Shown here: piece after piece, positions 4,521 to 52,789 of the stretch
Position numbering within the stretch: position 1 is the stretch's first letter
How the letters are laid out: every line of letters starts with the position of its first letter
Assembly (NCBI GenBank): GCA_019659125.1
Contig: JAIFVX010000002.1
Span: forward strand, 1 to 64,000
Length of the DNA: 64,000 nt
Direction: 5' to 3'
From: Candidatus Pacearchaeota archaeon
GTDB taxonomy: Archaea; Nanobdellota; Nanobdellia; Pacearchaeales; GW2011-AR1
Made by a program: the position numbers and the translations under genes
The notes under the pieces: model-generated
The model's input: the letters and a program-made list of their open reading frames with translations, nothing else
Told to the model about the DNA's origin: nothing
Database searches by the model: none

Positions 4521-4588
4521 CAAACCTTTAAAGATTTTATCTGTAACGTGACAACAAGCGTTTAAAATTATCAATTCTCTTTAGTTAC

Positions 4589-5253
4589 ATGAATGAAAAA
4601 GAGGCCGAGCTCATAGGTATGCATGTTGGAGATGGAACCCTCTATCTTGCAGGTAAAACCCTTGTTTGGGAAATGAGAGGAAGCATTCATGAACAGGAAT
4701 ATTATCAATATGTGTCTCAGTTGATTAAAGACCTTCTTCAAGTAGAAGCTAAACCTAAATATAGAGGTCCAAATAGCTATGGAATTCAAACAACAAATAA
4801 AGTTATCTCGAAGTTCTTTATTGATAATGGATTCAAACCCGGAAAAAAGGTCTATACAGTTTCTATACCTGATTACATCAAAGATAGTTCTAATGAAGTT
4901 AAACGTGTATTTGTAAGGGGCTATTTGATACGGATGGTTGTGTAAGATTTGAGAAAAATAGGACAAAAATAAGATATTATCCTAGAATAGAATTCAGTTC
5001 TGCCTCTAAGGCCTTGAGAAATGATCTGATATTGTTATTTAATGAGCTTGGATTTAAATCATATGGATGGCAGAACAAGAGAAAGGATGGTGAGGAGTTT
5101 AGAGTCTCTCTTGCAGGTTTTGCACAGCTTGATAAATGGATAAGAGAGATAAATTCATCTAATTTAAAGCATCTTAGCCGAATTAAGAATGGTCTATTGA
5201 ACAAATATAAAGTCTCGTTAAAAATCAAATCACAAATATTTAAAAGACACTAA
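4589..5253 (+). pseudogene. LAGLIDADG-type homing endonuclease-like ORF, frameshifted at about 4917-4921
   Basis: ORF 4589-4945 (GMHVGDG motif) continues in +1 as LFDTDGCVRFEKNRTKIRYYPRIEF...QIFKRH up to 5253. Adding one G to the GGGG run restores RGLFDTDG. Related to the intact ORF at 47950-48693. Confidence 0.85.
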
Positions 5254-5268
5254 TTATACCTTAAAGTG

Positions 5269-5350
5269 GCCCGGATGGCACAGCGGTCACTGCGCGAGAT
5301 TGCTAATCTCGTTTCCTCACGGATTCCCAGGTTCAAATCCTGGTCCGGGC
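5269..5350 (+). tRNA. tRNA-Ser (GCT), class II
   Basis: GCCCGGA...TCCGGGC acceptor; CGAGA-TTGCTAA-TCTCG anticodon arm; long variable arm; CCAGG TTCAAAT CCTGG T-arm. Confidence 0.95.
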
Positions 5351-5392
5351 GTTCAACTAAGAATATAAATAGAGTATTTTGTTAATAGTACG

Positions 5393-5994: not shown

Positions 5995-6420
5995 ATGGGT
6001 GAAATAAAAACAAAAGAGAATGATGCAAGCGTTAGGGACTTCATAGAGGCTATTAAAGATGCGCAAGCAAAAGAAAATGCCTTCACACTTCTCTCCATGT
6101 TTAAAGAAGTAACAAAGGAGTATCCAAAAATGTGGGGTAGCAGAATGATAGGATTTGGGAAGTATCACTATAAGTCTGAGAAAAGTAAGCAGGAAGGGGA
6201 CTGGCCCCTTATTGGTTTTTCTGCAGGAAAGCAGACTTTGACACTTTATTTAATGTCTGGGGCGAAGAACCATGCACCGTTACTCAAGGAGCTAGGCAAA
6301 CACAAGATGAGCACGGGCTCTTGTGTCTATATCAGAAGGCTGGCTGATGTCGATCTCAATGTTCTCAAGAGACTTATTAAAGAGTCATTTATCGTCAAGA
6401 AGAAAAGCTTAAATAAATAA
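5995..6420 (+). CDS. DUF1801 domain protein
   Basis: 'MWGSRMIGFGKYHYKSEKSKQEGDWPLIGFSAGKQTLTLYLM' matches DUF1801-type proteins. Confidence 0.85.
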   Translation: MGEIKTKENDASVRDFIEAIKDAQAKENAFTLLSMFKEVTKEYPKMWGSRMIGFGKYHYKSEKSKQEGDWPLIGFSAGKQTLTLYLMSGAKNHAPLLKELGKHKMSTGSCVYIRRLADVDLNVLKRLIKESFIVKKKSLNK

Positions 6421-6436
6421 TGGAATAATCGATAGC

Positions 6437-6679
6437 ATGAAAACACATAACAAGCAAGTGCACAAGCTGCCTGCAGACTTACGAAAAGCCATTACCTCTA
6501 ACAAGGATGCATTGGCGGTGTGGGGGACAATTACTCCACTCGCACGCAACGAGTGGATATGCTGGGTTACATCGGGAAAGAAAGAGGAGACAAGAACCAT
6601 TCGCATCGAGAAGGCACTCTCTAAACTAGCAGGTGGAATGCGCCGCCCCTGTTGTTGGGCTGGCTGTCCACATCGTTGA
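6437..6679 (+). CDS. YdeI/OmpD-associated-family-like protein
   Basis: 'LPADLRKAITSNKDALAVWGTITPLARNEWICWVTSGKKEETRTIRIEKALSKLAGGMRRPCCWAGCPHR' is a typical family signature. Confidence 0.85.
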   Translation: MKTHNKQVHKLPADLRKAITSNKDALAVWGTITPLARNEWICWVTSGKKEETRTIRIEKALSKLAGGMRRPCCWAGCPHR

Positions 6680-47806: not shown

Positions 47807-47813
47807 TTTTTAT

Positions 47814-47943
47814 GCGGGGGGTAGGAATCGAACCTACGAAGGCACTAAGCCACGAGATTTCTTCTGAAATCTCCTTAGCAACTCTCTCTTATGAGAAAGC
47901 GACATCTTAAGTCTCGCGCATTTGACCGCTTTGCTACCCCCGC
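47814..47943 (-). tRNA. tRNA-Leu (TAA), class II, with 47-nt intron at canonical 37/38 position
   Basis: GCGGGGG/CCCCCGC acceptor; CGAGA-CTTAAG|intron|A-TCTCG; T-arm GTAGG TTCGATT CCTAC; intron spans 47859-47905. Confidence 0.93.
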
Positions 47944-47949
47944 TTAGGG

Positions 47950-48693
47950 TTAAGAGACAAAAGTGCGGTTAAAAATGTTTGGATTTTCTAACATTTCTTT
48001 TCTCTGTTTTACCGTAGTTTTTGGGTGACAAAAACCAAACTTCTTGTAAATCAGCCATTTTGTATAATGCTTTGGATTCTTAAAACCTATTTCTTCAACA
48101 AACTTATCTACATCATCTATTCTATATAACAGAACAGTATGGACCTCATTAAGATCTCGTTTACCTTTATAGGGTTTCTTTATTCTGGGATGATATTCCA
48201 TGGAAATCAACAAATTAAAAACTTGGAAAATTAACTTACTAGATACAGATCCCAACTTTATAACTGGCCTGTTGTTAAATCTTTTCTTTGCTGATCTATT
48301 CTTATCAAAATAAATATTTCCATCAGTATCGAACAACCCTCTTAAAAATCTTTTCGAAAGAGACATCTTTTTTAATATTTGGATAGGGATTTCCACATTA
48401 ATTTTCGTTCCAGACTTGATACCTAAAGACTCAAAGAATTTGACTATTCTTTCATCAAAAATATGAAAACCATATATCCCTACTTTAGGATGCTCTTTAT
48501 AATTAACTTTTTTATTAAGAACTGGTATTGAGACTTTTTTATTAAATAGTGGTGCAACCCATCTATCGTGATATTCTCTTTCTTCTATTAAGTCCCCTCC
48601 AAGGTAATATTCTGCATAACGTTTAGTTCTACTAATACACCCATCTCCAATATGCATACCTAGAATTTCAGCTAAGTCTCCATCAATTTTCAC
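47950..48693 (-). CDS. LAGLIDADG-type homing endonuclease-like protein (intact)
   Basis: ILGMHIGDGCISRTKRYAEYYLGGDL and FLRGLFDTDGNIYFDKNR double motif; ends 6 nt before tRNA-Leu. Confidence 0.88.
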   Translation of the reverse strand: MKIDGDLAEILGMHIGDGCISRTKRYAEYYLGGDLIEEREYHDRWVAPLFNKKVSIPVLNKKVNYKEHPKVGIYGFHIFDERIVKFFESLGIKSGTKINVEIPIQILKKMSLSKRFLRGLFDTDGNIYFDKNRSAKKRFNNRPVIKLGSVSSKLIFQVFNLLISMEYHPRIKKPYKGKRDLNEVHTVLLYRIDDVDKFVEEIGFKNPKHYTKWLIYKKFGFCHPKTTVKQRKEMLENPNIFNRTFVS

Positions 48694-48743
48694 TTATACG
48701 GGCTGTTTTTAAGATATAAATAAGGTTGTAATCACTTAGAAAT

Positions 48744-49236: not shown

Positions 49237-50049
49237 ATGAATGAACTAGAAAAATTGAGGACTGAATTGAAAATACGAGGTTTTTCTCCACTGACGGTGA
49301 GAAACTATTATTTTTTCGTCAATAAATTCATGGAGAGAACTAATAAGCCTTGTGAGAGCTTGAATGAAGACGATGTAAAGGCATATCTTTCTGAAATGTT
49401 TGACACGAAATCTAAAAATACTATCATGCTTGCTGCTGCCTCCTTGAAATTCTTTTATGGAGAGATCCTTGGAAAAGAATTTGCAAAGATCAAGATGCCT
49501 AAGAAAGATAGAAAACTTCCTGAAGTACTTAACAAAGAGGAAGTAAAAAGCCTCATTGAGGCTGCAGAGACTATAAAGTCACGATTCATTATTTCTATGC
49601 TTTACTCGGCTGGACTTCGTGTTTCTGAGCTTGTAAACTTAAAAGTTGGAGACATAAACCTTGCTGATAAGACTGGATGGGTAAGAAAGGGAAAAGGATC
49701 GAAAGATCGACTGTTCATGATTTCTGAAGGGCTTGCTCAAGACCTTACGGACTACCTACAACATAAGGGCGTTGGATACGCCTATTTGTTTTCCAAGGAC
49801 AAGCCATTGACGACGAGGAATATACAGAAAATTATTTCACTCACCAAGACAAAAGCAGGTCTATCAAAGAAAGTGACTCCCCATACTCTTAGGCATAGTT
49901 TTGCCACCCATCTCTTGGAACAGGGGACTGACATAAGGATCATCCAGGCGATGCTTGGGCATGCATCATTGAATACAACGCAAGTGTACACGCATGTATC
50001 CTCTGATCAAATAAAGAAAGTAGTTAATCCTCTTGAGGGGCTCTACTGA
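49237..50049 (+). CDS. xerA: Tyrosine recombinase, XerA-like
   Basis: R-x-H-x-x-R-Y catalytic set: YSAGLRVSELVNLKVGD, HTLRHSFATHLLEQG, LGHASLNTTQVYTHV. Confidence 0.93.
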   Translation: MNELEKLRTELKIRGFSPLTVRNYYFFVNKFMERTNKPCESLNEDDVKAYLSEMFDTKSKNTIMLAAASLKFFYGEILGKEFAKIKMPKKDRKLPEVLNKEEVKSLIEAAETIKSRFIISMLYSAGLRVSELVNLKVGDINLADKTGWVRKGKGSKDRLFMISEGLAQDLTDYLQHKGVGYAYLFSKDKPLTTRNIQKIISLTKTKAGLSKKVTPHTLRHSFATHLLEQGTDIRIIQAMLGHASLNTTQVYTHVSSDQIKKVVNPLEGLY

Positions 50050-52668: not shown

Positions 52669-52706
52669 AGGTAGTGGAATAGGGAGTATATATCTTTATA
52701 GAAAGT

Positions 52707-52789
52707 GCGGGGAGTAGGAATCGAACCTACGCAAGCACTAAGCTACTGCGGCCTTAACGCAGCCCGTTTGACCGCTCCGGCATCCCCGC
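52707..52789 (-). tRNA. tRNA-Leu, class II, anticodon reads AAG (A34)
   Basis: GCGGGGA/TCCCCGC acceptor; D-arm CCG GAGCGGTCAAA CGG; CTGCG-TTAAGGC-CGCAG anticodon arm; GTAGG TTCGATT CCTAC T-arm. Confidence 0.93.

Follow-up and report, generated by a model that had tools for sequence, protein, structure and literature searches.

Organization of the tRNA-Leu(UAA) locus

We analyzed a 64,000-nucleotide stretch of Candidatus Pacearchaeota DNA (contig JAIFVX010000002.1, positions 1 to 64,000), referred to here as the window. On its minus strand, an uninterrupted open reading frame (ORF) that begins with GTG and contains both GMHIGDG and RGLFDTDG stops 6 nt before the first nucleotide of a tRNA-Leu(UAA) gene. 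This arrangement, an intact LAGLIDADG ORF ending just short of the tRNA, had been the core of the original prediction and was confirmed by the ORF itself, Pfam, Rfam and ARAGORN. The features of this locus and of a second, homologous one in the window are as follows.

47950..48693, minus strand: LAGLIDADG ORF of 247 amino acids with its stop codon at 47950-47952, predicted to encode a monomeric homing endonuclease with two repeats
47813..47943, minus strand: tRNA-Leu(UAA), class II, with one intron; the presumed target or passenger gene (Rfam RF00005, 48.8 bits; ARAGORN)
47859..47905, minus strand: anticodon-loop intron of about 47 nt, presumably of the BHB type, with approximate boundaries (ARAGORN on L001/L010 and sequence reading)
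47969..47976, minus strand: TATA-like box ATTTTTAA of the tRNA, within the last codons of the ORF (aligned with TTTATAAG boxes)
48700..48712, minus strand: TTAAAAACAGCCC, kept between the TATA box of the ORF and its start codon in the close clade (window, L006, L007 and L008; as TTAAAGACAGCCC in L009)
48713..48723, minus strand: TATA box TTATTTATATC of a predicted, apparently leaderless promoter of the ORF's own (alignment of upstream regions)
4547..5253, plus strand: second LAGLIDADG homolog, interrupted by a frameshift (parts at 4547-4945 and 4903-5253) and ending 15 nt before tRNA-Ser(GCT)
5269..5351, plus strand: tRNA-Ser(GCT) adjoining the broken homolog (Rfam)

With introns allowed (option -i), ARAGORN reported the window tRNA as Leu(taa)i(37,47), corresponding to an intron of 47 nt. 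The ORF lies upstream of the tRNA, outside both the gene and its intron, and is thus not intron encoded. The conserved TTAAAAACAGCCC sequence could be an operator or a start-site element.

The window also contains a tyrosine recombinase ORF, XerA-like by eye (49237-50049, plus strand), roughly 540 nt away from where the endonuclease ORF starts. Elsewhere in the window (52705-52789, minus strand), and at L017, L018 and L159, there is a tRNA-Leu whose anticodon, judged by its position in the loop (UUAAGGC), is AAG; A34 is normally absent from archaea, which makes this anticodon unusual there. A second tRNA-Leu(UAA) was not found among the 38 tRNAs listed for the same genome, a list that misses even the window tRNA-Leu, so that intron-bearing copies may escape it.

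The ORF encodes a predicted LAGLIDADG nuclease

The window protein matched Pfam family PF14528 (LAGLIDADG_3) with an E value of 4.5e-10, and this domain was found in 23 of the 23 sequences searched. Across the family, the first catalytic aspartate is present in all 114 sequences, while the second position is occupied by Asp in 111, Glu in 4 and Met in 1, an acidic residue (D or E) being retained in 115 of 116. The GDG and DTDG motifs are kept, and each of the two LAGLIDADG helices terminates in a catalytic acid. An AlphaFold2 model based on the window protein and 22 homologs had a pLDDT of 95 and the two-repeat LAGLIDADG topology, and the model, Foldseek and Pfam were consistent with two alpha-beta-beta-alpha-beta-beta-alpha repeats. 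Foldseek and profile matches included the TliVMA intein, I-Tsp061I, E-DreI and I-DmoI; LAGLIDADG maturases and WhiA were also among the Foldseek matches of the window protein. The fold is thus confidently predicted to be that of a two-repeat LAGLIDADG nuclease, and the protein would be a putative site-specific DNA endonuclease.

Three other groups of proteins provide points of comparison. In the 247-amino-acid window ORF, Pfam detected LAGLIDADG_3 and nothing else, without a protein-splicing domain or a host protein, and the NCBIfam matches to intein-bearing proteins covered only their endonuclease part; the ORF is thus not an intein, although the endonuclease domains of the TliVMA and PI-PfuI inteins, which do belong to such proteins, are its best sequence matches among solved structures. 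The GIY-YIG domain was likewise not found by Pfam. I-DmoI and I-Tsp061I are encoded within rRNA introns; the family resembles them in fold, catalytic acids and archaeal hosts, but in nearly all of its members the ORF is external to both the tRNA and its intron.

Values of dN/dS against close relatives were 0.09 to 0.24 where dS was unsaturated, and by this measure the window protein appears to be under strong purifying selection. Decay was also seen, in the frameshifted copy at 4547-5253 and as internal stops or frameshifts in several homologs, and such broken copies fit the usual life cycle of homing endonucleases.

Homologs adjoin tRNA genes throughout the phylum

The genome that carries the window has three homologous loci besides the window ORF, every one of which adjoins a tRNA gene: the frameshifted copy before tRNA-Ser, one copy lying tail to tail with and overlapping tRNA-Met, and one before tRNA-Val. 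A scan of public contigs returned four close homologs (L006 to L009; 59 to 71% identity), each directly 5' of a co-oriented tRNA-Leu(UAA), with an intron in two of the four tRNAs (L006 and L009) and none in the other two (L007 and L008).

We then searched 371 genomes of a single phylum, to which L006 belongs, with a five-sequence profile. Matches were obtained in 202 genomes, leaving 169 without any homolog, and 116 homologous loci, all from metagenome-assembled genomes, were read. ARAGORN with introns and a T-arm/acceptor finder, applied to near and distal flanks alike and imperfect for intron-bearing genes, placed a tRNA within 250 nt in 87 of the 116 loci, compared to about 10 expected from the distal flanks (0.087 per locus). 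The tRNA was downstream and co-oriented in 57 of these, downstream and convergent in 17, upstream and co-oriented in 9, and upstream and divergent in 4. Of the downstream co-oriented tRNAs, 49 of 57 begin in the interval from -40 to +50 nt relative to the stop codon, where the distal density would give about 0.4 in 116 loci. The original prediction had proposed, as one of two readings, a homing ORF that is free-standing and tracks tRNA genes, and had named an excess of close co-oriented tRNAs beside homologs as the way to check it; the 49 such loci among 116 strongly bear this out.

By the less rigorous reading by eye, a tRNA was recognized in at least 20 of the 29 loci without an automated call, often with oddly placed introns, while four loci (L037, L059, L100 and L106) had no tRNA recognizable by either means. 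Two homologs, L046 (ORF at about 6001-6657) and L110 (about 1085-1711), lie within a tRNA gene, apparently as a large tRNA intron. No tRNA was found within 2 kb of the 53 LAGLIDADG relatives on viral contigs, nor one adjoining the long intein-type frames of the same genomes. A viral origin of the clade was considered and rejected, as viral contigs gave only distant relatives, of at most 38% identity and none near a tRNA. Although the data come from metagenome-assembled genomes, chance or an assembly artefact at the single window locus has a negligible probability, given that homologous loci occur independently in public contigs and that other genomes contributed more than 80 additional ones.

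Protein clades keep to one isoacceptor

The adjoining tRNAs include Leu (UAA, CAA and others), Arg(UCG), Arg(UCU), Ile, Gln, His, Cys, Met, Thr and more. A restriction to class II tRNAs was therefore not supported, Arg, Ile, Gln, His, Cys and Met tRNAs being used as well. Since ARAGORN misreads the isotype of intron-bearing class II tRNAs, isoacceptor labels were assigned by hand from the sequence, prior to tree building. On the protein tree, with 101 labeled tips and 18 states, 26 isoacceptor changes were counted, while shuffled labels required 76 on average and never fewer than 68 (n = 1,000). Protein clades thus keep to one isoacceptor, and these faithful clades extend over many families of the phylum; host relatedness could contribute to this fidelity. 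In the Leu(UAA) protein clade of the window, all eight members adjoin Leu(UAA).

In contrast to the isoacceptor, the side and orientation of the ORF differ within clades: Leu(CAA) shows all four arrangements, and the ORF is 3' of the tRNA at two Leu(UAA) loci (L014 and L016). As side and strand vary while the isoacceptor is constant, what is tracked is the tRNA gene itself rather than an insertion point.

The 3' end of the ORF and the tRNA promoter

The TATA-like box ATTTTTAA lies within the ORF, 25 nt before tRNA-Leu(UAA). A TTTATAAG/A box was found 23 to 25 nt before the tRNA in L006 to L009 and also in G187, a genome whose orthologous site lacks the ORF, and this shared position makes it credible that ATTTTTAA serves as the TATA box of the window tRNA. 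The box expected in the last codons of the ORF is thus present and aligns with those of relatives with and without the ORF. The C terminus that encodes it is not a family motif, as had been supposed for IF[KN]R: other Leu(UAA) members end in LLNRQ, LLKG, LLIDDSKDL or DFLEK, and QIFKRH, the second such end in the window (ending at 5253, before tRNA-Ser), is a TATA-like box read in frame.

Where the ORF overlaps the promoter zone, a TATA-like box was found there in 9 of 31 loci, compared to 11% of control windows from the same ORFs (P = 0.005), while 23 of the 26 loci with a gap of at least 20 nt between ORF and tRNA have a box between -42 and -19 relative to the tRNA. An overlap between ORF end and promoter is thus genuine in some members but not in others; those without it may rely on read-through. 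In many loci the stop codon is inside the tRNA, for instance at nucleotides 8 to 10 (L023, L027, L029, L052 and L061), where the common U8-A/G9 supplies a stop.

The original prediction had further inferred that the ORF adjoins the tRNA in order for its 3' end to double as a tRNA promoter. The overlap itself was observed, but it is better explained as a by-product of insertion at the promoter or 5' end of the tRNA than by such a purpose. This is indicated by G366, in which, compared with the empty site in G187, the ORF sits immediately upstream of a tRNA TATA box that was retained, and by G205, in which the ORF separates the old tRNA TATA box from the tRNA.

Sequences upstream of the ORFs

Two further elements were observed upstream of members of the family. 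A motif, CACTGGACA, often in tandem, immediately precedes the TATA box upstream of ORFs in L015, L030, L036, L040, L041 and others. It occurs exactly in 32 of 115 ORF upstream regions, compared to 0.19 expected, nearly always in the orientation of the ORF, and is absent from the clade of the window. It is also distributed genome-wide in G013, G072 and G112 (in G013, 20 matches compared to 0 for the reversed control) and occurs upstream of ORFs that by eye are BRO-like, Xer recombinase and RNase H-like. It resembles an operator, whose regulon would include these endonucleases.

The second is a dispersed promoter with a structured leader of about 145 nt (L380 to L399 in one genus, g182, and also L063, L066, L069, L090 and L101). 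The leader ends in a hairpin that could hide a GGAGG ribosome-binding site, with compensatory changes in 6 of 32 pairs. Several copies are present per genome, about 13 of the 20 sampled precede LAGLIDADG ORFs, and the leader had no match in Rfam.

Empty sites and probable joint replacement of the tRNA

Orthologous sites with and without the ORF were found within each of four genera (g11, g60, g10 and g66). In g11, G366 (L007) and G187 have tRNA-Leu(UAA) and the next gene in common, but only G366 has the ORF; homology returns at the tRNA TATA box, 4 nt past the ORF stop. The two tRNAs are 85% identical. In g10, other species of the genus have a Leu-Arg-Gly tRNA cluster without the ORF, and in several of them the orthologous position is a short gap without an ORF. 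In G205, an ORF with an internal stop separates the tRNA TATA box from the tRNA and starts where the tRNA began. The tRNA-Leu(CAA) and tRNA-Arg(CCT) alleles of this genus are diverse with or without an ORF. This general diversity, from which co-conversion could not be told apart here, might stem from earlier events or merely from rapid evolution of the tRNAs. In g60, tRNA-Arg(UCU) is on the plus strand in G141, while G015 has an ORF, an inverted, intron-bearing tRNA-Arg(UCU) and a degraded tRNA-Cys.

The clearest case is g66. The tRNA-Arg(UCG) genes of three empty species (G195, G021 and G075) are 95 to 97% identical to each other, but the occupied species, G163, carries the ORF with a tRNA-Arg(UCG) that is only 62 to 67% identical to those three. 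The flanks of G163 and of G195, the nearest of the three, align at 72 to 78%, and homology returns exactly at the 3' end of the tRNA. Gain of the ORF together with replacement of the tRNA would best explain this pattern, which is clean at this one locus only.

The same comparisons bear on the suggestion that the protein is domesticated, a LAGLIDADG-fold regulator or maturase that aids transcription, intron splicing or processing of the adjoining tRNA. Strong purifying selection, the maturases and WhiA among the fold matches and the introns in many adjoining tRNAs are in line with such a role; on the other hand, a homolog is missing from 169 of 371 genomes and from orthologous tRNAs within the same genus, copies are broken, the targets are many, partner tRNAs can be intronless (L007 and L008) and the catalytic acids are kept. 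We thus regard domestication as very improbable.

We also consider it quite improbable that tRNA genes are merely safe landing sites, into which the ORFs insert by a general route, as integrases do, leaving the tRNA gene uncut. Many mobile elements do use tRNA genes, and partial tRNA duplications were seen near the ORF at L058, L036 and L040. However, isoacceptor fidelity by clade across genera, combined with a varying side, points to a protein that recognizes a particular tRNA. Moreover, the inserts (G205 and g66) are little more than the ORF, and no integrase was found in those compared at g10 (G205) and g66. Flanking direct repeats or integrase-like duplications are not general, tRNA fragments being found at L058, L036 and L040 only, and integrase-like duplication was thus discarded as a general mode of insertion.

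Two observations concern related loci. In one genus (L361 to L378), tRNA-Arg(UCU) carries very variable insertions, among them some 30 nt in the D arm; its orientation is opposite to that in the ORF-bearing G174. A different LAGLIDADG subfamily, with an N-terminal extension, lies beside tRNA-Gly(UCC)/Arg(CCU) (L157, 3397-4221; L162, 2064-2984), in the cluster that bears the Leu(CAA) ORF in G205.

A probable homing endonuclease targeting tRNA genes

Taken together, we propose that the window ORF is very probably a free-standing LAGLIDADG homing endonuclease, belonging to a phylum-wide family that targets the tRNA gene, here tRNA-Leu(UAA). We infer the cut, its position and the way in which the resident allele may resist. 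The enzyme would cut the tRNA gene of a chromosome without the ORF, the gene adjoining each ORF being its putative target, and double-strand break repair from the ORF-bearing chromosome would copy in the ORF plus the tRNA allele beside it. Owing to divergent sequence and/or an intron, this new tRNA would function yet not be cut, so that the host would survive and the element persist; the resident tRNA may escape by sequence divergence, by an intron or by insertion of the ORF into the site. In most cases the ORF ends at the tRNA promoter or in the first tRNA nucleotides, and this accounts for the overlap of its 3' end with the promoter in the window.

Introns are only mildly more frequent near ORFs, at 53% compared to 31%; one detector gave P = 0.03, but the difference was not significant with ARAGORN. 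Given this weak enrichment and the intronless partners (L007 and L008), the intron was not supported as a universal means of resistance. The same data weigh on a version of tRNA-gene homing, overlapping our proposal, in which the free-standing enzyme mainly mobilizes the tRNA intron by cutting the exon junction of intronless alleles. This is suggested by the introns in the tRNAs of the window, L006, L009, L012, L013, L014 and L019, by the two intron-encoded homologs (L046 and L110) and by isoacceptor fidelity, since recognition could include the anticodon loop. We nevertheless find it unlikely, because intact ORFs adjoin intronless Leu(UAA) (L007 and L008) and intronless Arg, Ile and Gln tRNAs and the intron enrichment is weak.

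A stronger form of the tRNA-gene homing proposal is that of cleave-and-rescue, in which each enzyme would destroy one essential tRNA gene and bring a recoded, resistant copy, with ORF and tRNA acting as one unit. We hold this to be a possibility somewhat short of an even chance.

Relation to known systems and significance

The nearest functional precedent is SegB of phages T4 and T6, described in PMC13096335 (citing Brok-Volchanskaya 2008) as a free-standing GIY-YIG homing endonuclease of the tRNA region, which cuts inside tRNA genes and spreads that region by recombination. Both are free-standing and found beside tRNA genes of many isotypes, but SegB, as presented there, is a GIY-YIG enzyme of phage genomes, one enzyme with many sites, whereas the present family is LAGLIDADG, resides on archaeal chromosomes and keeps to one isoacceptor per clade. 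Archaeal group I introns with LAGLIDADG ORFs, including LAGLIDADG_3, occur in Woesearchaeota and Pacearchaeota (PMC6125680); in the portion of that paper available to us, all 39 introns are in rRNA genes, and free-standing tRNA-linked ORFs are not described. No description of a tRNA-linked LAGLIDADG family was found in the full-text literature searched, which covers few subscription journals; this large family is apparently undescribed.

It would represent a chromosomal, phylum-wide population of homing endonucleases specialized on tRNA genes in DPANN-type archaea, equivalent in cells to SegB in phages. Such a population would be a driver of tRNA allele turnover and intron gain in reduced genomes and a natural parallel to engineered rescue drives, and it would provide a set of enzymes with differing tRNA-gene specificities. 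Cleave-and-rescue, if true, would entail recurrent replacement of tRNA alleles across the phylum, perhaps accounting for its unusual tRNA introns.
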